Source: Flavobacteriaceae bacterium (lineage in GTDB: Bacteria > Bacteroidota > Bacteroidia > Flavobacteriales > Flavobacteriaceae). From it: 64,000 nt of DNA. The position numbers and the translations under genes were made by a program. Under the pieces are notes generated by a model. It was not told the origin of the DNA and searched no databases. It saw only the letters and a list, made by a program, of their open reading frames with translations. How positions within the stretch are numbered: the stretch's first letter is position 1; each line of letters starts with the position of its first letter. Of the stretch, positions 39,473-51,799 are shown piece after piece. Where the stretch lies: positions 1 through 64,000 of the forward strand of contig JANQKN010000190.1 of NCBI GenBank assembly GCA_028281065.1, in the 5' to 3' direction.

Positions 39473-39480
39473 CAAAGATA
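39473..39480 (-). promoter_or_regulatory. Candidate -7 box (TATCTTTG) of the fad operon
   Basis: TATCTTTG on the minus strand fits the Bacteroidota TANNTTTG box and would place transcription start near 39466, about 20 nt before the MarR start. No good TTTG -33 is visible 20 nt upstream; that position falls within the palindrome. Confidence 0.5.
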
Positions 39481-39488
39481 GAAAAAAA

Positions 39489-39506
39489 TATTATGCATGC
39501 ATAATA
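39489..39506. promoter_or_regulatory. 18-bp perfect palindrome, candidate MarR operator
   Basis: TATTATGCATGCATAATA is a perfect inverted repeat next to the only MarR gene in the window and covers the -33 zone of its promoter. The size is right for a MarR dimer. Binding is inference. Confidence 0.7.
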
Positions 39507-39562: not shown

Positions 39563-40534
39563 CTATTTCAGGGCTACGAGTTTGTTCCAGGATTCGAAGA
39601 AATCCTTATCGAACACAGATTCCTTTGTTCTGGGTTTTTTTAACCACTCCAATTGTTTGGGACTCAAATACTTTTGTGGATTTTGTTTTAACCCCAAGGC
39701 ACTGTTTATTTTGGTCTTTTGGACTTCGGTTAGGGGGATGTGCTTAAACTTACTGTGTTGTATGAAGTAATCTTCATCCCGTGGGGACCATTGAAACTGC
39801 GATTTGGCCACAGGTTCCATTTTGTTAGCCCTAGCAAAGCCCGATAGTTCTTCTTCGGAGATTTCATCAGCATCGTAGATAACCCGAACCACTTCGGCGC
39901 GATTCATAAAACCCGCTTGTGTAGCTAGAACACCTTCCTGGGATCCCAATTCTTTTTCACCCGTCCAGAAGCAATACATTTTATAGTGTTTTTCCTGAAG
40001 GTTATGATCCGAAGTAGTGGTAGTAAGTTCCTTACCCAAGATTTTAACGTATTCGGGCACAGGGTTGCCGTATACTTCCATAGCTTTTAGCATAGCATTG
40101 TACAATCCTTTGGCAGAATAATCGCTGGCTACCCTGCGTACAATATTTTCCCCTTTGTCGTTTACGATGCGAACCACAGGATTGTTCCAAGTGGGTTCGT
40201 TGTATTTTTTAAGGATCTGGCGGTCTTTACCTCCTTTATTATTGAATATGGCTAAGGGGATGAATTCGTTCTCTATAGCTTCGGTCATTAAAGGGTGGGA
40301 GAGTACATTATGACCATAGTTGCGACAGGTAGCACAACCGGGTACTTCCTGAAATAGGATAAGAACAGGTTTCCCTTCTTTTTTGGATAAATTAATGGCG
40401 GTGTCGTAATCACGGTACCAGCGTACTTTTCCTAATTCTTCGTCTTGATTCTGGCCGTTAGTACGTTCCTGGGCAGTCAATGGCTGTAACAATAGTACAG
40501 CCACAATTAACTGAAGCATTTTGGGTAGACTCAT
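39563..40534 (-). CDS. Exported thioredoxin-like protein fused to a partial MsrA-like domain
   Basis: This 323-residue protein has a signal peptide (to ~LTAQ, residue 21). A thioredoxin-like domain (~35-160) carries VPGCATC at 64-70, a CxxC pair (Cys67/Cys70) at the site where the related VPGUxxT family has selenocysteine. A second domain (~180-235) resembles the start of peptide-methionine sulfoxide reductase A: YCFWTGE with Cys188, then EGVLATQAGF and AEVVRVIYDADEISEEEL. The downstream MsrA parts (GxDxGxQYRS) are missing, and a ~75-residue unrelated C-terminus follows. Redox repair in the envelope is a plausible role, not proven. The gene stands alone. Confidence 0.75.
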   Translation of the reverse strand: MSLPKMLQLIVAVLLLQPLTAQERTNGQNQDEELGKVRWYRDYDTAINLSKKEGKPVLILFQEVPGCATCRNYGHNVLSHPLMTEAIENEFIPLAIFNNKGGKDRQILKKYNEPTWNNPVVRIVNDKGENIVRRVASDYSAKGLYNAMLKAMEVYGNPVPEYVKILGKELTTTTSDHNLQEKHYKMYCFWTGEKELGSQEGVLATQAGFMNRAEVVRVIYDADEISEEELSGFARANKMEPVAKSQFQWSPRDEDYFIQHSKFKHIPLTEVQKTKINSALGLKQNPQKYLSPKQLEWLKKPRTKESVFDKDFFESWNKLVALK

Positions 40535-40703: not shown

Positions 40704-41720
40704 TTAAAAGTCCATGGCCTCTTTTCGGGATTTGATATTGAGCTTGGTGTATATGTTGCTTACGTGCGACTTAACGGTGCTGAGCCCAATGTTGAAGGCT
40801 TCCGAAATCTCCTTATTGGAACGCCCCTGTTTAATCTCTTCCAGGATCTTCCGTTCCTGAACACTCAGCTTATGTAGTGGGTTGGCCTGTTTTTTCCGTT
40901 TTCGCTTCAAAAAGTGATTCAATACAAAACCAAGGATAAAGAACCCCAAGCCTATAATAATGTAGGTATAGTAGTTACTGTTGTCACGGGGCAGTTGCGT
41001 TTTAAACGCTTTAAAATACGTGGAATTTTCCCTCCGCCACTTTTTGAGATAGGCTTCGTAGTAGGATTTGTTTAATGGGTAGTTCGATTCGAACTTACTC
41101 TTCTGGAGCGCATATAGCGATACCAAGCTATGGGAACTGGTATCTGCCACATACCGAAGCTTTTCATAGATAGCTTGGGTAACAAATTCGCCCTTCATGG
41201 AAGAACCCCCAAAATGGGTGCTGTCCACATAGCTATAGATATGATCTATTTCCCTGATTTCCTTGGAAGGTTCGTAGCCTGATATTGCAACAGGGTAGAA
41301 GGGTGGGTTTCCCGGAACGTTTTCTATGGTAATGCTAACATTTTTATTACCGATAAGAAAAATGTGGTTTTCCTCCTTACCACCAATGATGAGCGAGGCG
41401 GCAGGGGAGTTTCTTTTGGAAACGTGGATGCGGTATAATTGGTCTTCTTCCGAAAAGTATTGGGTGGCAAACGAAAAATTACCCAAACTGTCCATAGGGG
41501 CTTCCGAAATAATCATTCCGTTAGACATGGTATACATATCGTTAAGGGTAGGGATATGCGAAAGGTAAACCACCGGATTCCAAATGGAATCCAGCTGTAG
41601 TTTACCTTGTATACCCGACTTTTGTTTTGAAGTGGATTGTCCTAATGCACTCTGAAAAAACATTAGGAGCCCACAAAGAACAAGGAGGGATCGGTATGGC
41701 GGGTTAGTTGTGTAATTCAT
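40704..41720 (-). CDS. Membrane-anchored regulator: periplasmic domain, one TM helix, LuxR-type HTH
   Basis: This 338-residue one-component regulator has a signal-like N-terminus (to ~LGQS, residue 28). An extracytoplasmic region (~29-250) starts with a beta-rich part recalling DUF4369-like domains and ends in a helical stretch. A transmembrane helix is at 251-270, followed by a basic KRKRKK stop. The cytoplasmic LuxR/GerE HTH (283-338) has LSVQERKILEEIKQGRSN and STVKSHVSNIYTKLNI. It lacks receiver and kinase domains, so sensing and DNA binding sit in one chain. It follows the secreted His/Asn-rich gene by 17 nt and is driven from the same strong promoter. Ligand and targets unknown. Confidence 0.88.
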   Translation of the reverse strand: MNYTTNPPYRSLLVLCGLLMFFQSALGQSTSKQKSGIQGKLQLDSIWNPVVYLSHIPTLNDMYTMSNGMIISEAPMDSLGNFSFATQYFSEEDQLYRIHVSKRNSPAASLIIGGKEENHIFLIGNKNVSITIENVPGNPPFYPVAISGYEPSKEIREIDHIYSYVDSTHFGGSSMKGEFVTQAIYEKLRYVADTSSHSLVSLYALQKSKFESNYPLNKSYYEAYLKKWRRENSTYFKAFKTQLPRDNSNYYTYIIIGLGFFILGFVLNHFLKRKRKKQANPLHKLSVQERKILEEIKQGRSNKEISEAFNIGLSTVKSHVSNIYTKLNIKSRKEAMDF

Positions 41721-41737: not shown

Positions 41738-42211
41738 TTAATTACTTCCTGATTGATGTGAATGGATCTGAATTTTACCGGTTACCTTTTTGGGTTTCAA
41801 TTTTACTACCCAATCGCCTTTCATGGGATCCTTAAAGCTTTTGTTGAGCTGCCCACAAACCGATTCCGAACTTTTACCCCCATCCGAAGAACTGGAATTG
41901 AGTTCGCTTTCCACAGAGAAATTCCCTTGTTTGTCCCCTTTTGGGTTGTAGATTTCCATAGTGAGCGCGCCAGACGAAATGGAACTGGACACCCCAATGT
42001 TAAGATGCTCCACATCTTCCTGTACCGAAATCTTGACCGATTCGTTTTTGGAACTGGATTCCAAATTAATGGATTTACTGGTTTGATAACTGGAACAATT
42101 GTGGTTCTTGTTGTGGTTGCTGTTGTGATTACTGTTTTGTTGAGCGAAAAGCAAAGAGCAACTGCTCAGGAGAAACATAACGAGTACGATTGATTTGATT
42201 GATGTTTTCAT
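41738..42211 (-). CDS. Small secreted protein with NxNH repeats
   Basis: This 157-residue protein has a signal peptide (cleaved near LFAQ, residue 24), then a short repeat NSNH-NSNH-NKNH (26-38), a Ser-rich beta segment, and a C-terminal half that looks like a compact beta-sandwich (SGALTMEIYNPKGDKQGNF, MKGDWVVKLKPKK), similar in rhythm to PPC/P-type domains. The three His could bind a metal. There are two Cys (Cys39 and one in SVCGQL). I know no family. It is first in an operon with a membrane-anchored LuxR-type regulator and has a perfect housekeeping promoter, so it may be the ligand, co-sensor or target of that regulator. Confidence 0.8.
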   Translation of the reverse strand: MKTSIKSIVLVMFLLSSCSLLFAQQNSNHNSNHNKNHNCSSYQTSKSINLESSSKNESVKISVQEDVEHLNIGVSSSISSGALTMEIYNPKGDKQGNFSVESELNSSSSDGGKSSESVCGQLNKSFKDPMKGDWVVKLKPKKVTGKIQIHSHQSGSN

Positions 42212-42240
42212 GATTTCTGATTTTTAAATTCTGAATAACA

Positions 42241-42272
42241 CAAATCTATTTTCCACAGGGCCGTTAGGCAAA
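42241..42272 (-). promoter_or_regulatory. Promoter of the NxNH protein/LuxR-type operon (TTTG-N20-TAGATTTG)
   Basis: On the minus strand, TTTG (42272-42269) and TAGATTTG (42248-42241) are 20 nt apart. Boxes and spacing are identical to the M36 promoters. Transcription should start near 42235, about 25 nt before the ATG. Confidence 0.85.
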
Positions 42273-42360
42273 TGGAAAAAGGCTGAAAAAAGAACGAAAA
42301 AAGTGCTAAAAACGTCTTTTCCTCCCTAAGATAGCGATAAAGGGCGACATTTTTCCGTAA

Positions 42361-44305: not shown

Positions 44306-46684
44306 TTACAAACGAACAATCTTAAAAGTTTGAACGGTATCCCCCGAAGAAAGCTTTAACAGGTACACTCCGCTACTAAGGTTGCTGTAATCGATGGTTT
44401 TGGTTCCGCTGTTATTTAACTCACTGCGAACCAATTGTCCTTGTAGGTTGAAAATTTCTACCGTATAGTTTTGTTCGGCAGTGGTAATGTTCAATACATC
44501 TTCTACGGGATTGGGGTAAATGCCAAAGGCAGATTGGGAAGTTTCGAATGTATTTAGAATATCGTCATTCACAATATTAATGGTGAGGTCATCAAAATAA
44601 AACCCGTCTGCCGTACCAGAAGGTCCTGAAACCAACTGAAACCTGACTAAAATCTGCTCGCCAACATATTCACTAAGATCGATGCGCTCCATGACCCATT
44701 CGTTTTGGCTTCCATCGTAGAGGGGTTCGCCTTCGGGTTGTACACCTCCAGGTTTTCCACTGTCGGTATACAATCCACATTGTGGAACCCAGTTGGTTCC
44801 ATTATCTGTAGAAACCTCGAACTGAACATAATCTTCGTTTTGCTCTATGGCCCAGCGTGCATAGAAGGACGCACTGGCTCCTACGGCAGTACTTAAATCG
44901 ATAGGATCTGAAAGGGTTATGGATGAATCCTCGTTGTTTGTGTATTGGGTAAAAGCAGAATCTGCAATGGAACTAGGGGCAGATACAAAGAACACATCGT
45001 TTATATCCCAGTCGGTTGTGTCAAAATTATCGGAGGTATTATCCCCTGGATCATAGAGTACAGATTCTTCCAAACCAAATCTCTTTTCAACCAATAGCGT
45101 ACTATCGAAGGTTCCGTTGTCTACTACAATTTCGAAAGCAATAAGGTCCCCAGCTTGCGTTCCTGCTTGCAGCGTGTATTGCAATGTTCCAGACACCAAT
45201 TCCAAAGGAACGATTCCACTAAAATTTTGCGGGCTTCCTACGGAAGCGATATTGGAGGAAATAGGATTGATACTTACCCCAAAATCATGGTTTTCGGTCA
45301 ATCCCAACCGCTTAAATTCGAAGTCCTGATTCACCACGGCTTGATTTCCTGTATACGGACTGCTTCTGTCGAAAATATTCACCCCGTTGTTGGTCATTTT
45401 AGCACTGGCGATGTTCATGTACATCATGTCCAAACAGGAAGGGATGATCTGTTCCATAGGCAACCAAAACTGATTCCCAATTTCGGGCGTAATGGCATAG
45501 ATCTTATTGTGGGTTCCAACAGTACCATACATAAAATCGTTGGCAGCACCTGCTATCCCATTTGTTTTTTGGAAGAAATAATCGTTTTTGGAAGTTAATT
45601 CAGTTTGAAAATCCACATACAAATCATGTTCTGGGGTAAAGGCGGATGATGTATACCCGTAGGGGAAAAAGATACCATTTCCCCAACTGTGGTTGTTAAG
45701 CGACATCACAAAATCGTGTTGCTCGCAAAACCACCTCATGGCTTGGTTTTCTACTTCAGAAAAGGGGCCTGTTCCGTGATACACCTGACTATTTGGGTCG
45801 CTGGACGTTCCTTCACCTCCCCAAGTACTGTTGGCTGGATCTCCATCTATGTAGTAATCGTAGTTTCGGTTGTTGTCCACCCCATGACCATCCTTTCGGT
45901 TTTTTCGCCAGAATCCACCTCCGTTGGGATCGGTGAGTTCATTATAGAGGTATCCATCGGGATTTAATACGGGGATGAAATACAGTTCGGTATTATCTAC
46001 AATTTCCTTTACCTCCCTATTAGTTTCATAGTTTTCCAACAGATACCACATAAAGAACAGGTTTTGCGATAGGGAAGTGGGTTCCCGAGCGTGGTGGATG
46101 GAATTATAGAGTATTTTGGGTTCTCCTTCGGAGCTGGAATTGGGATTGTCACTAATTTTTACCCACTTTATAGGATTCCCCCCTATGGGTGGTGTGGTAC
46201 CATTGTCGGGTTGTCCATCGGTAAGGAAGTTTCCAATATTGTCTGGTGCTGTGACGAGGTTAGGGTACATGGCAAACATATCGTCTATTTCATCCAGGAA
46301 TTCCTGATAGGTATAATAGCCTCCCATGCTTCCAAAGTTCCAGTTTTGCGGGGTTTCATAAAAATGTTCGCAAACGGAAGCTTGCCTTGAAATGGTTACT
46401 TTTTTATTGTTCTGAAGAAAATAAGCCTTGGAGTCTTCAATAAGGATATCGACCCTATATCCTGAATCCTTTACTTTTTGAACTTCGGATACCGAAAAAT
46501 CACAGAGCACGTATTTCTCTTGAAGGTCTATTCCGTGATCTATGGGAATACCCAAATTGTAAAGTCTTTGCAGGTCGTTGGTATCTTGAAAGTGTATTTT
46601 GGCCCGTTGGTGGATTTCCTGAACTTCTTGCGCAGACATGGAAAGTCCACAAAGCATCAGCAATCCTAGAATAATTGTTCTCAT
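44306..46684 (-). CDS. T9SS-secreted M14 zinc carboxypeptidase, copy 1
   Basis: This 792-residue exported carboxypeptidase has a signal peptide (to ~MSAQ, residue 19), a prodomain (~20-110) and the M14 domain. Zinc ligands are His198 and Glu201 (HHARE) and His332 (NNHSWGN), and the catalytic Glu401 is in ITPEIGNQFW. Substrate-binding NPDG (241-244) and DNNRNY are kept. A PPC-like beta domain, a jelly-roll-like domain (YFDDLTINIV) and a type A T9SS domain (FGIYPNPVEDVLNI, VYLLKL) follow. It is the most diverged of three tandem paralogues and has its own terminator. Expected action: removal of C-terminal residues from extracellular peptides. Confidence 0.94.
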   Translation of the reverse strand: MRTIILGLLMLCGLSMSAQEVQEIHQRAKIHFQDTNDLQRLYNLGIPIDHGIDLQEKYVLCDFSVSEVQKVKDSGYRVDILIEDSKAYFLQNNKKVTISRQASVCEHFYETPQNWNFGSMGGYYTYQEFLDEIDDMFAMYPNLVTAPDNIGNFLTDGQPDNGTTPPIGGNPIKWVKISDNPNSSSEGEPKILYNSIHHAREPTSLSQNLFFMWYLLENYETNREVKEIVDNTELYFIPVLNPDGYLYNELTDPNGGGFWRKNRKDGHGVDNNRNYDYYIDGDPANSTWGGEGTSSDPNSQVYHGTGPFSEVENQAMRWFCEQHDFVMSLNNHSWGNGIFFPYGYTSSAFTPEHDLYVDFQTELTSKNDYFFQKTNGIAGAANDFMYGTVGTHNKIYAITPEIGNQFWLPMEQIIPSCLDMMYMNIASAKMTNNGVNIFDRSSPYTGNQAVVNQDFEFKRLGLTENHDFGVSINPISSNIASVGSPQNFSGIVPLELVSGTLQYTLQAGTQAGDLIAFEIVVDNGTFDSTLLVEKRFGLEESVLYDPGDNTSDNFDTTDWDINDVFFVSAPSSIADSAFTQYTNNEDSSITLSDPIDLSTAVGASASFYARWAIEQNEDYVQFEVSTDNGTNWVPQCGLYTDSGKPGGVQPEGEPLYDGSQNEWVMERIDLSEYVGEQILVRFQLVSGPSGTADGFYFDDLTINIVNDDILNTFETSQSAFGIYPNPVEDVLNITTAEQNYTVEIFNLQGQLVRSELNNSGTKTIDYSNLSSGVYLLKLSSGDTVQTFKIVRL

Positions 46685-46786
46685 TTCTTTTTCAAATAGG
46701 TGAAGTCTTGCTAAGGTACGTATTTATAATGAGTCAATTTTGAGTAACAATCCTGACAGCTCTTGGTTTATAAATGGCTGGATATT

Positions 46787-46816
46787 AAAAAAAGAGCCCC
46801 AAGTGGAGCTCTTTTT
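46787..46816 (-). terminator. Terminator of M14 copy 2
   Basis: AAAAAGAGC / GCTCTTTTT 9-bp stem around a short loop, 24 nt after the stop at 46840, with a T run on the minus-strand side. Confidence 0.85.
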
Positions 46817-46839
46817 CATAAAAGAATATTTAAATGTGT

Positions 46840-49233
46840 TTATAAACGCACTATCTTAAAGGTTTGCACGGTGTCTTCTGAAGATAATTTCAGTAGATAT
46901 ACCCCACTGGCAAAGCTGCTATAGTCGATTGTTTTAGAACCGTTGATGTTTTCCTCACGGCTTACCAATTGTCCTTGTAGGTTGAAGATTTCCACGGTAT
47001 AGTTGTGTAGGGGAGTGGTAATGCTTAATATATCCTCTACAGGGTTAGGGTAAATACTGAAGGCAGAAGAAACGTTATCTTCTATAGCCAATTGGCCATC
47101 CACGACATTTATCTGAAGGTCATCGAAATAGAAGCCATCTTCGGTAAAACCTCCGTCCGATCTAAACTCGAAACGAACCAAGATGTTTCCCCCCAAATAA
47201 TCGCTTAGGTCTATTTCTTCGAACACCCAATCGTTTTGGTTCCCGTCATACAAAGGCTCACCTTCTGGCTGGAATCCATTGTCGCTACCAGGATTGGTAA
47301 ATTTTCCACATTGGGGTTCCCAAGTGGTTCCGCCATCAGTAGAAACTTCGAACTGGGTATAGTCCCAATTGTTTTCTATTCCCCATTTGGCATAGAAGGT
47401 TACATTGGCACCCGTGGCATTGGTAAGGTCTACTTCGTCACTAAGTGTAATGGTTTCATTGGCATTGTTGGGATAGTTCCCAACGGCAGACTCGGTAATA
47501 GAACTGGAAGGGGATACAAAAGTTGATGTAGTGGTTTCCCACCCGTTATTTTCGAAGTTGTCCGTGGTACTATCGCCAGGGTCTTGGAAAATGGCCACCA
47601 ACTCACCGAATTTTTTGTTCACTAGGATAGCCGAATCATAAGAACCGTTGTTCACCACAAGTTCGTACACTACATCATCCCCTGTTTGTACACTAGCGTC
47701 CAAAGTATAGGAAATGGATCCGCTGTCGGATTCCAGGGTTTCCATACCTGTAAAGTTTACAGGGGAACCTGAAGAGGTGATGTTTGCAGAAACGGGATTA
47801 AGGCTTACCGTAAAGTCCCCCGAGCCTGAAAGTCCCAACCTTCTAATATCAAAGGTAGCATCTACTGTAGTATTATCCCCAATGTATTGGGAAGCTGTAT
47901 CGTTAACCGCGGCATAGTTGTTCACCATTTTTGCAGCCGTTAGGTTTAGGTACATCATGGTTTTACAGATACTTTCAATCTGATTGGCAGGAGGCCAGAA
48001 AGACGGCCCAATCTCTGGAGTGAAAGAATAGGCTCCGTTATGGGTTCCTACGGTTCCGTACACAAAATCGTCACTATTTCCTGCTGCAGGGTATAAGTCG
48101 GTAGAAATCATATTGGTAAAGCCGTTTCGGGAAACCAATTCACTAGAAACCCCTTGAAAAAGGTCATCTTCTGGGGTGGGTGTATTTTCTGCATAACCAT
48201 AAGGATAAAGCAATAAGTTTCCAGAAGTATGGTTGTTGAAGACCATAACAAAATCATGGTTTTCTACCATCCATTTCATGGCTTGGTTTTCTACTTCAGA
48301 AAAAGGTCCCGTTCCATGGTACACATTACTGTTGGGATCGCTGGAAGTTCCTTCGCCACCCCAAGTACCGTTGGCAGGATCCCCATCTATATAGTAATCG
48401 TAGTTACGGTTGTTGTCCACACCATGTCCACCTTTTCGGTTTTTACGCCAGAATCCACCTCCGTTGGGATCGGTAAGCTCATTGTACAGATAACCATCGG
48501 GATTTAAAACAGGGACAAAGTATAGCTCTGTATTGTCTACAATACTTTGTATTTCTGGATCGCTATCGTAGTTTTCCAACAGGTACCACATATAAAAGAT
48601 AAGCTGTGAAAGCGACGCGGGTTCGCGGGCATGATGGATAGCGGTATATAGGATCTTGGGTTCGCCTTCGTTGGAGGTATCTGGGTTGTCGCTTATGCGT
48701 AACCAGTTAATTTGGTTCCCTCCAATAGGTGGGGTAGTACCATTGTCGGGCTGCCCTTCGGTCACAAAATTGTGAATGGGCGCTTTGGCCGTAATTAAGT
48801 TCGGGTAAGCAGCGCGCATCTCGTCCAATTCATTCAACATTTCCTGATAGGTAAAATACCCACCCATGGAACCTTGGTGAAAGTTGGTAGGGGTTTCGTA
48901 ATCGTTAGCAGAATCGTCACAACTTGGGTTAAGCTGGCGTGCTTGCATACCTTTAGCATTTTCAGCCAGAAAATGTGCCTTGGCATCTTCAATGATAACG
49001 TCTACCTGAAATCCGTTGGCGCGCGCCCGATCCAATTCGGATACAGAAAATTCGGAAATAATGAAATGGCCATGCTTTTTTATACCATGATCTACGGGAA
49101 TGTCCAAAGCCTCCAATTGACTTAAGGATTTTCCTTGATAGGAGATCTTTGCACGCTGAAAGGTTTCTTGGACATTTTGGGAAAATCCAAGGCAGGTAAC
49201 AAAGAGCAGGGAAACAAGTAAAGTGTTTTTCAT
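46840..49233 (-). CDS. T9SS-secreted M14 zinc carboxypeptidase, copy 2
   Basis: This 797-residue protein has the same layout as copies 1 and 3: signal peptide (MKNTLLVSLLFVTCLGFSQ), prodomain, M14 domain with HHARE, NNHTSGN and FTPEIGPSFW, C-terminal beta domains and a type A T9SS domain (FSIYPNPVEDILSI). It is closest to copy 3, sharing long identical stretches in the prodomain and tail. I chose the ATG at 49233 because it opens the signal peptide; the frame is open to 49392, but that extension contains the conserved upstream block and resembles no protein. Its own terminator follows. Confidence 0.94.
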   Translation of the reverse strand: MKNTLLVSLLFVTCLGFSQNVQETFQRAKISYQGKSLSQLEALDIPVDHGIKKHGHFIISEFSVSELDRARANGFQVDVIIEDAKAHFLAENAKGMQARQLNPSCDDSANDYETPTNFHQGSMGGYFTYQEMLNELDEMRAAYPNLITAKAPIHNFVTEGQPDNGTTPPIGGNQINWLRISDNPDTSNEGEPKILYTAIHHAREPASLSQLIFYMWYLLENYDSDPEIQSIVDNTELYFVPVLNPDGYLYNELTDPNGGGFWRKNRKGGHGVDNNRNYDYYIDGDPANGTWGGEGTSSDPNSNVYHGTGPFSEVENQAMKWMVENHDFVMVFNNHTSGNLLLYPYGYAENTPTPEDDLFQGVSSELVSRNGFTNMISTDLYPAAGNSDDFVYGTVGTHNGAYSFTPEIGPSFWPPANQIESICKTMMYLNLTAAKMVNNYAAVNDTASQYIGDNTTVDATFDIRRLGLSGSGDFTVSLNPVSANITSSGSPVNFTGMETLESDSGSISYTLDASVQTGDDVVYELVVNNGSYDSAILVNKKFGELVAIFQDPGDSTTDNFENNGWETTTSTFVSPSSSITESAVGNYPNNANETITLSDEVDLTNATGANVTFYAKWGIENNWDYTQFEVSTDGGTTWEPQCGKFTNPGSDNGFQPEGEPLYDGNQNDWVFEEIDLSDYLGGNILVRFEFRSDGGFTEDGFYFDDLQINVVDGQLAIEDNVSSAFSIYPNPVEDILSITTPLHNYTVEIFNLQGQLVSREENINGSKTIDYSSFASGVYLLKLSSEDTVQTFKIVRL

Positions 49234-49276
49234 AGTAAGATCCTTATGGGGTTTAAAATCGTTTCGTATTTGCCTC

Positions 49277-49342
49277 AAAAACGTAAATATAACCCACATA
49301 TTACAATATATAAGTGGATATGAGAATTTTATGACCCCAGAA
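49277..49342 (-). repeat. Conserved upstream block of M14 copy 2
   Basis: This block is shared with the block upstream of M14 copy 3 (51840-51909): the elements ACGTAAATATA, CACATATTA and GAGAATTTTATGA-type sequences occur in the same order. A TATATTTA (minus strand) resembles the -7 box but no clear -33 follows. Shared regulation is likely. Confidence 0.55.
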
Positions 49343-49360
49343 CTTAAATATGGCAAACTA

Positions 49361-49389
49361 AAAAAGAGCCCCTTGTAAGAGCCCTTTTT
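49361..49389 (-). terminator. Terminator of M14 copy 3
   Basis: Minus-strand AAAAAGGGC / GCTCTTTTT stem (one G-T pair) 25 nt after the stop at 49415, with a T run. It belongs to the same family of hairpins as the terminator after copy 2. Confidence 0.8.
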
Positions 49390-49414
49390 CAACTATATAA
49401 GGTTAAGTGTAAGC

Positions 49415-51799
49415 TTATAAGCGTACAATTTTGAAGGTCTGTACGGTATCTTCTGAAGATAATTTCAACAGATACACGCCGCTGGCAAAGTTGCTATAGT
49501 CAATTACCTTAGAACCGTTATTGTTTTCTTGACGGCTTACCAATTGCCCTTGCAGGTTGAAAATCTCCACGGTATAATTCTGAAGGGGAGTGGTAATACT
49601 CAAAATGTCTTCTACCGGGTTAGGATAGATGCTGAAGGCTGAAGAGGTGTTGTCTTCAATAGCCAATGGACCATCATCCAAAACGTTTATTTGTAAATCG
49701 TCGAAATAGAATCCATCGTCCCTAACGCCGCCATCGGATCTAAACTCGAAACGTACCAAGATGTTTTCACCCAAGTAATCGCTTAGGTCTATCTCTTCCA
49801 TTACCCAATCGTTTTGAGTACCGTCGTACAAAGGCTCGCCCTCGGGTTGGAATCCATTGCTGCTTCCGGGATTGGTGTATTTCCCACATTGTGGCTCCCA
49901 CGAAGCCCCTCCATTGGTCGAAACTTCGAATTGGGTATAATCCCAGTTGTTTTCAATACTCCATCGGGCATAGAAAGTTACATTGGCACCTACTGCGTTG
50001 GTTAAATCCACTTCGTCACTTAGCCTAATGGTTTCGTTGGCATCGTTGGGATAGTTTCCACTGGCAGACTCTGTAATGGAGCTAGACGGGGATACAAAAG
50101 TTGAGGTGGTTGTTTCCCATCCATTGTTTACGAAATTGTCTGTGGTGCTGTCTCCAGGATCTTGGAAGATGGTTGCCAAAGCACCGAATTTCTTATTTAT
50201 TAGAATTGTATTGTCGTAAGACCCGTTATTTACCACTAATTCGTAAGCAATATCGTCTCCTGGTTGTACACTGGCATCCAAGGTATAGGTAATGGTACCG
50301 CTGTCGGTATCCAGTGTTTGCATGTCAACAAAATTCACAGGGGTTCCTGAAGAGGTAATGTTTGCAGAAACGGGATTAAGGCTCACTGTAAAATCCCCGC
50401 TACCGGAAACACCTAGCATTCTAATATCGAAGGTAGCATCTACGGTTGTATTGTCTCCTACAAAGTTTGATGCAGTATCTGTAATGGCACCAAAATCATT
50501 TACCATTTTGGCAGCCGTTAAATTGAGGTACATCATGTTCTTTGCAATGGGTTCTATCTGATTGGCTGGAGGCCAAAACGAAGTCCCAATTTCTGGGGTA
50601 AATGCCAATATCTTTTCGTGGGTTCCCACACCACCATACATAAAATCATCACTATCTCCCGAGAAAGGGGAGTCTCTTAAGGCAGTATACCCATTACGTG
50701 ACACTAACTCACCCGAAACGGCAATGAATAGGTCTTCGTCTGGAGTAGGTACATCGGCATAGGCATGCGGGAAGTATAGCAGTTGTCCAGAAGTGTGGTT
50801 ATTGAAGGCCATGACAAAGTTGTGGTTTTCCACAAACCACTTAATGGCTTGGTTTTCCACTTCAGAAAAAGGCGCAGTACCGTGATATACTTGAGAGCTA
50901 GTGTCTGGAGAGGAACCGGGTCCACCCCAAACGCCCATACTGGGATCTCCATTTACATAAAAGTTGTAGTTTCTGTTGTTGTCTGTTCCATGTCCATCTT
51001 TTCGGTTTTTTCTCCAAAAACCACCTCCGTTGGGATCGGTAAGCTCATTGTACAGATAACCATCGGGATTTACAACAGGAACAAAATACAGTTCTGTGTT
51101 ATCTACTATGTTTTGTACTTCTGGATCACTGTCGTAGTTTTCCAGTAGGTACCACATATAAAAGATAAGTTGGGTTAGTGAAGCAGGCTCGCGGGCGTGG
51201 TGAATGGAAGTGTATAGAATCTGTGCTTCCCCTTCGGTGTTAGAGTCTGGATTATCGCTAATCTTTACCCACTTAATTCCATTACCACCAATAGGAGGAG
51301 TAGTACCATTGTTGGGCTGTCCTTCGGTCAGAAAATTTTGAATATTTTCTGGAGCCGTAATCAAATTGGGATAGGCAGCTTTCATTTCGTCCAATTCGTC
51401 CAACACTTCTTGATAGGTAAAATACCCGCCCATAGAACCTTGGTGGAAATTCACCGGGGTTTCATAATCGTTGTTAGCATCGTCACAACTTGGGTTAAGC
51501 TGGCGGGCTTGCATGCCTTTAGCATTTTCGGCTAAGAAATGGGCTTTTGCATCTTCAATAATGACATCTACCTGAAATCCATTGGCACGTGCCCGGTCCA
51601 ATTCGGATACCGAAAATTCGGAAATGATAAAATGGCCTTTCTTTTTAATTCCATGATCCACGGGAATATCCAAAGCTTCCAATTGACTTAGGGATCTTCC
51701 TTGATAGGAAATCTTTGCACGCTGGTAGGTTTCTTGGACGTTTTGGGAAAATCCAAGGCAGGTAACAAAGAATAGTGAGGCAAGTAAAATTTTTTTCAT
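49415..51799 (-). CDS. T9SS-secreted M14 zinc carboxypeptidase, copy 3
   Basis: This 794-residue paralogue of the two genes downstream has a signal peptide (MKKILLASLFFVTCLGFSQ), prodomain, M14 domain (HHARE, NNHTSGQ, FTPEIGTSFW) and the same C-terminal beta domains and T9SS domain. Relative to copy 2 the main changes cluster in the middle of the catalytic domain (for example PSMGVWGGPGSSPDTSSQ) and in the loop before ALRDSPFSG, so substrate preference may differ. It has its own upstream block and terminator, and lies next to purL, with which it shares no function. Confidence 0.94.
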   Translation of the reverse strand: MKKILLASLFFVTCLGFSQNVQETYQRAKISYQGRSLSQLEALDIPVDHGIKKKGHFIISEFSVSELDRARANGFQVDVIIEDAKAHFLAENAKGMQARQLNPSCDDANNDYETPVNFHQGSMGGYFTYQEVLDELDEMKAAYPNLITAPENIQNFLTEGQPNNGTTPPIGGNGIKWVKISDNPDSNTEGEAQILYTSIHHAREPASLTQLIFYMWYLLENYDSDPEVQNIVDNTELYFVPVVNPDGYLYNELTDPNGGGFWRKNRKDGHGTDNNRNYNFYVNGDPSMGVWGGPGSSPDTSSQVYHGTAPFSEVENQAIKWFVENHNFVMAFNNHTSGQLLYFPHAYADVPTPDEDLFIAVSGELVSRNGYTALRDSPFSGDSDDFMYGGVGTHEKILAFTPEIGTSFWPPANQIEPIAKNMMYLNLTAAKMVNDFGAITDTASNFVGDNTTVDATFDIRMLGVSGSGDFTVSLNPVSANITSSGTPVNFVDMQTLDTDSGTITYTLDASVQPGDDIAYELVVNNGSYDNTILINKKFGALATIFQDPGDSTTDNFVNNGWETTTSTFVSPSSSITESASGNYPNDANETIRLSDEVDLTNAVGANVTFYARWSIENNWDYTQFEVSTNGGASWEPQCGKYTNPGSSNGFQPEGEPLYDGTQNDWVMEEIDLSDYLGENILVRFEFRSDGGVRDDGFYFDDLQINVLDDGPLAIEDNTSSAFSIYPNPVEDILSITTPLQNYTVEIFNLQGQLVSRQENNNGSKVIDYSNFASGVYLLKLSSEDTVQTFKIVRL

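Follow-up and report, generated by a model that had tools for sequence, protein, structure and literature searches.

SMALL-REG, a putative self-regulating pair of a secreted protein and a membrane-anchored LuxR-type regulator in some marine Bacteroidota

Introduction

In the co-component systems of the VtrA/VtrC type, described from enteric bacteria, a regulator with an N-terminal CadC-like HTH is encoded together with a downstream lipocalin-like partner, and the periplasmic parts of both proteins form an obligate heterodimer (PMC9214523). Transmembrane transcription regulators (TTRs), which combine a DNA-binding domain and a transmembrane (TM) helix in one chain, are enriched in Bacteroidota (PMC10269533). 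SusR of Bacteroides is described as a single-protein regulator that itself binds maltose in the periplasm and has a putative C-terminal HTH; its DNA-binding domain is reportedly unlike any known one, and no secreted partner was described (PMC3878776).

Here, a gene pair encoding a small exported protein (SMALL) and a regulator predicted to be membrane-anchored (REG) is analyzed; the term window denotes the whole 64,000-nt stretch of DNA under study. In common with VtrA/VtrC, ToxR/ToxS, and PsaE/PsaF, some of whose ORFs overlap, the pair consists of adjacent genes for a membrane-anchored transcription factor and a fast-evolving periplasmic or exported beta-rich protein (PMC9214523). This two-gene adjacency was found in 31 of 31 testable loci, however with the partner upstream and not downstream. 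In contrast to the VtrA/VtrC type, the HTH of REG is C-terminal and of the LuxR/NarL class, which reverses the domain order, and SMALL carries a signal peptide, is modelled as a jelly-roll sandwich and occurs in Bacteroidota. Because domain order, HTH class, partner position, and modelled fold differ, SMALL-REG is not filed here as a member of the co-component systems, which are, by analogy, its closest working analogues. REG also combines a GerE domain and a predicted TM helix in one chain, as TTRs do, although that class (PMC10269533) implies neither an obligate secreted partner nor the operator of SMALL-REG. In contrast to SusR (PMC3878776), the DNA-binding domain of REG is clearly of the GerE type. 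No description of the SMALL-REG pair was found in the openly accessible literature searched.

Results and Discussion

In the window, SMALL and REG are separated by 17 nt and the locus comprises the following features:

42273 to 42315, minus strand: tandem direct repeat with an 11-bp period, three units plus a degenerate fourth, candidate REG operator
42282 to 42315, minus strand: full model match of the repeat element
42269 to 42272, minus strand: -33 box TTTG, not kept in most relatives
42241 to 42248, minus strand: -7 box TAGATTTG, 34 nt from the repeat element, spacing conserved
41738 to 42211, minus strand: SMALL, exported, 157 aa, with the jelly-roll at residues about 38-157 and the NxNH linker at about 27-38
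40704 to 41720, minus strand: REG, membrane-anchored LuxR/GerE-type regulator, 338 aa
40974 to 41636, minus strand: REG periplasmic region, residues 29-249, transthyretin-like beta domain plus helices
41364 to 41396, minus strand: SLIIGGKEENH loop of REG, residues 109-119, found in the class paired with SMALL but not in the unpaired class
40905 to 40973, minus strand: predicted TM helix of REG, residues 250-272 (250-273 in the AlphaFold model)
40710 to 40871, minus strand: GerE/NarL-type HTH of REG, residues 284-337

The promoter TTTG-N20-TAGATTTG reported in the first-pass annotation is present on the minus strand (TTTG at 42272-42269, box at 42248-42241), and its description of the two proteins holds as well: SMALL has a signal peptide, followed by three NxNH motifs (NSNH-NSNH-NKNH) and two cysteines (C39 and C119), and REG consists of a periplasmic domain, one internal TM helix and a LuxR-type HTH. 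In line with this, the HTH of REG matches PF00196 (GerE) at E 1.6e-16 and 60.1 bits, compared with a gathering score of 23.5, and this match is found in all 34 REG family members; its model fits the NarL HTH (1je8) at 0.5 Å. Neither a receiver nor a kinase domain was detected in REG; its similarity to response regulators is limited to the HTH region. The AlphaFold model, built from a 34-member alignment (mean pLDDT 86), shows an N-terminal signal helix, a beta domain (36-148), helices (150-242), the TM helix and a NarL-like HTH. The stretch KRKRKK directly after the TM helix fits a cytoplasmic location of the HTH. Matches of the periplasmic domain to DUF4369 (PF14289) were obtained for two of the 34 members (best E 1.7e-4), the window protein not being among them.

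In the merged set of loci from Aureisphaera, Winogradskyella, Psychroserpens, Bizionia, Dokdonia, and several other Bacteroidia families, SMALL lies directly 5′ of REG in all 31 distinct loci with resolvable upstream DNA, irrespective of which of the two genes was used as query. Among 149 relatives, all seven REG orthologues with at least 40% identity are preceded by a homologous SMALL gene at a distance of 3-17 nt. A search with the periplasmic part of REG against 84,980 species genomes yielded 21 loci, with SMALL upstream in 20 and cut off by a contig edge in one, and REG adjoins every confident match when SMALL is the query. Pairs in further families (G1265, G1335, and G830) came from a class-wide search with REG, whereas SMALL was not found at the weaker REG matches G1185, G788, and G150 of this search; the weaker match in the window genome itself (C70) is one of the unpaired paralogs. 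The pair is rare (SMALL occurs in 10 of 397 genomes of the family and 3 of 395 of the phylum) and is found in several genomic contexts. The pairing had been proposed in the first-pass annotation, and the comparison across genomes, in which the two genes are not rarely adjacent and SMALL falls into no known unrelated family, leaves it standing and above chance. REG paralogs at roughly 30% identity are present in many Flavobacteriaceae without a neighbouring SMALL gene, and no repeat element was found upstream of them. Regulators of this periplasmic-TM-LuxR type form a widespread unpaired family in Flavobacteriaceae (L009-L031), in two cases (L010 and L028) encoded about 50 nt behind a serine hydrolase gene (for L010, one shown to match PF00144), an arrangement that echoes the serine hydrolase target proposed for REG below.

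Searches of Pfam, NCBIfam, and PDB sequences assigned SMALL to no named family above threshold; among the sub-threshold hits were galactose-binding-like Pfam families. The AlphaFold model of SMALL is a P-domain/GOLD-like jelly-roll (core pLDDT about 97), with the subtilase/P-domain protein Tk-SP (3afg), 9ues, and the GOLD protein TMED1 (7rrm) as nearest folds (Z 11.9-12.0, rmsd 2.4-2.9 Å over 96-100 residues). The modelled fold resembles proprotein-convertase P-domain and GOLD jelly-rolls at a sequence identity of 9-13%, and P_proprotein (PF01483) gave weak matches in five of 22 SMALL members (best E 0.0037), with none for the window protein. No lipocalin was among the listed fold matches. Both C39 and C119 are present in the Aureisphaera, Winogradskyella, and Psychroserpens members, except for the Winogradskyella locus L056, and C119 was never seen without C39, which suggests that the two residues may form a disulphide. 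A lipoprotein signal was considered for the window protein (LSSC) and rejected, as its cysteine is not kept in relatives.

Beyond the earlier annotation, the comparison revealed a tandem-repeat element of 11-bp period and a second putative target promoter. In an alignment of the upstream regions, one block is conserved above its surroundings, and this block is a direct repeat with an 11-bp period. Over 36 positions and 21 sequences, C is invariant at positions 3, 14, and 25 and nearly so at 36, T is invariant at 9, 20, and 31, and identity at a lag of 11 amounts to 0.61 compared with 0.18-0.42 at other lags. In leave-clade-out scoring, 24 of 26 training loci reached 20-46, the highest shuffle scoring about 17. 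The held-out locus L064 also scores for the element, as do L177 and L179, which were outside model training; the element is weak in L180 and L176, and no recognizable element was found in L057 and L062. In most loci, 34 nt separate the element from the -7 box (TAnnTTTG), compared with 45 nt, i.e., one repeat more, in L060. The -33 box is complete in only seven of 26 loci, as would be expected of an activator-dependent promoter.

The window genome contains two full sites (E 4.5e-7 and 2.6e-5), with the next match at 0.04. The second site precedes a PF00144 serine hydrolase gene, with TAGCTTTG at 34 nt, and the same arrangement is found in A. galaxeae (G008) before an 81%-identical hydrolase orthologue, where the flanking DNA differs. 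Among 22 searched genomes, the orthologue is present in these two (G000 and G008) and absent from the other 20. A site is present in 22 of 24 pair-bearing genomes, in most of them only at SMALL; the model was trained on the same upstream regions, and re-finding those sites is not independent. No site at E ≤ 1e-4 was found in 142 relatives without the pair, where stricter filters lose weak matches. Further regulon sites in G000 and other genomes were rejected, as the weaker matches checked had no -7 box within 70 nt and several lay inside ORFs.

Position, spacing, and co-occurrence of the repeats make it most likely that REG binds them as an array and thereby activates its own operon. REG would reside in the inner membrane, with its beta-plus-helical domain in the periplasm and its NarL/LuxR-type HTH in the cytoplasm, and SMALL would be its secreted jelly-roll partner. 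REG molecules may bind the 11-bp repeats side by side on one face of the DNA, at about -45 to -80 from the start site, and may from there recruit RNA polymerase to a promoter with a mostly degenerate -33 box, which would activate the SMALL-REG operon and, in Aureisphaera, the serine hydrolase gene. SMALL, or SMALL together with a bound envelope molecule, would be read by the periplasmic domain as co-sensor or feedback ligand, with the SLIIGGxEENH loop as candidate site. Binding of REG to the element, activation rather than repression, the contact between SMALL and REG, and the signal are all inferred. That REG acts at the 11-bp element on its own operon appears quite probable, whereas a direct modulation of REG by SMALL has about an even chance of being correct; for the statement as a whole, an autoregulated two-gene envelope-sensing cassette with REG at the repeats and SMALL read by REG, the odds are likewise balanced.

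The alternative that survives best, although we hold it to be doubtful, is that SMALL is the output: REG alone would sense an envelope condition and set the level of a secreted or surface-located SMALL with a structural or protective role, together with the hydrolase in Aureisphaera. This would agree with SMALL being the first gene behind a nearly sole element per genome and with the free variation of its N-terminal linker, which is Asn/His-rich in the closest relatives, His/Ser/Asn-rich in L052, Asn-rich in L062, long in Dokdonia, and short or absent elsewhere. A SMALL variant in L106 (958-1854) even carries a long coiled-coil-like insert. Also pointing in this direction, the SMALL protein of L105 in G753 (1495-2202) has a C-terminal CHU_C type IX secretion signal (E 5.7e-19). 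It therefore probably crosses the outer membrane, and this speaks against its staying in contact with REG in the inner membrane; this T9SS-tagged variant favours SMALL as a regulated product or as a reporter of export. On the other hand, the class of REG proteins that carries the SLIIGG-EENH loop is found exclusively alongside SMALL, and unpaired REG paralogs, which have no such loop, do without SMALL, so that SMALL accompanies a class-specific change of the sensor. Residues specific to this class are K102, S109-H119 (SLIIGGKEENH), D166, A192, and W228, as well as S306, G312, S321, and K330 in the HTH, which suggests a SMALL- or ligand-specific periplasmic site and an altered DNA specificity.

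T-tracts are able to raise transcription on their own. As phased T-tracts make up the element, it might be an intrinsic curved-DNA or UP-type promoter element that is not bound by REG. This is unlikely in view of its genome-wide rarity, its absence from relatives without the pair, the invariant C residues, and its recurrence before one unrelated gene.

The genomic neighbourhood raises the question whether the cassette is a local regulator of an adjacent beta-oxidation operon, in response to fatty acids that SMALL-REG would detect at the envelope. About 17 loci have the pair flanked by an acyl-CoA synthetase gene on one side and marR-fad genes on the other, and in L060 too it neighbours fad genes. 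However, Dokdonia and about a dozen further loci carry it in a different place, and many relatives that lack the pair have marR immediately next to the acyl-CoA synthetase gene. In addition, marR has its own conserved promoter (-7 box starting at 39480) with a further feature:

39490 to 39505, minus strand: palindrome ATTATGCATGCATAAT over the -33 region of the marR-fad promoter, outside the cassette, at the boundary of the downstream fad unit

A TATGCxxGCATA palindrome followed by a -7 box is found just upstream of marR in the window and in at least 10 of 15 loci, and ATTATGCATGCATAAT is likely to be the MarR operator of the beta-oxidation operon. Regulation of fad genes was rejected as main role, since the pair occurs without them and the marR promoter is separate, and we consider this reading very unlikely. 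The varied contexts, the direct adjoining of the acyl-CoA synthetase gene and marR without the pair and the own promoter of marR argue for a self-contained unit moved as a block, and the beta-oxidation neighbourhood looks positional.

At the roughly 17 loci with this neighbourhood, the intervening gene is of the VPGUxxT thioredoxin-like or the DUF1761-like kind, or there is none. In the window, 39563-40534 (minus strand) encodes a VPGUxxT-type thioredoxin-like protein, a Cys version of the (seleno)protein family NF041383 (E 3.4e-92), whereas in L049 (7022-7414) and similar loci of Winogradskyella/Psychroserpens a DUF1761-like membrane protein of 130 aa takes its place between REG and marR. Upstream of the acyl-CoA synthetase gene, 44306-51799 (minus strand) encodes three tandem paralogous large secreted proteins, which look like carboxypeptidases with T9SS-type C-terminal sorting domains.

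The metal-carrying role suggested in the first-pass annotation, with SMALL as metal-binding ligand via the three NxNH motifs of the window protein and, by extension, the His/Ser/Asn-rich linker of L052, is highly implausible and finds no support, as only the window and its two nearest relatives (and, in part, L048) have the repeats, which are absent or replaced by other low-complexity linkers elsewhere, while the pairing persists.

Conclusion

SMALL-REG looks like an undescribed, self-regulating envelope sensor in some marine Bacteroidota. With its candidate operator mapped and one further putative target at hand, it offers a defined two-gene unit of transmembrane signalling in a phylum whose signalling outside polysaccharide utilization is mostly uncharacterized. 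More tentatively, it may represent a Bacteroidota class of cassettes independent of the ToxRS type, in which a secreted jelly-roll protein and a LuxR-type membrane regulator of inverted topology would act as one sensor at a single self-directed operator of 11-bp tandem repeats, possibly reporting on the export of SMALL. If true, sensing by a regulator and a secreted partner would have arisen outside the ToxRS superfamily from unrelated parts.
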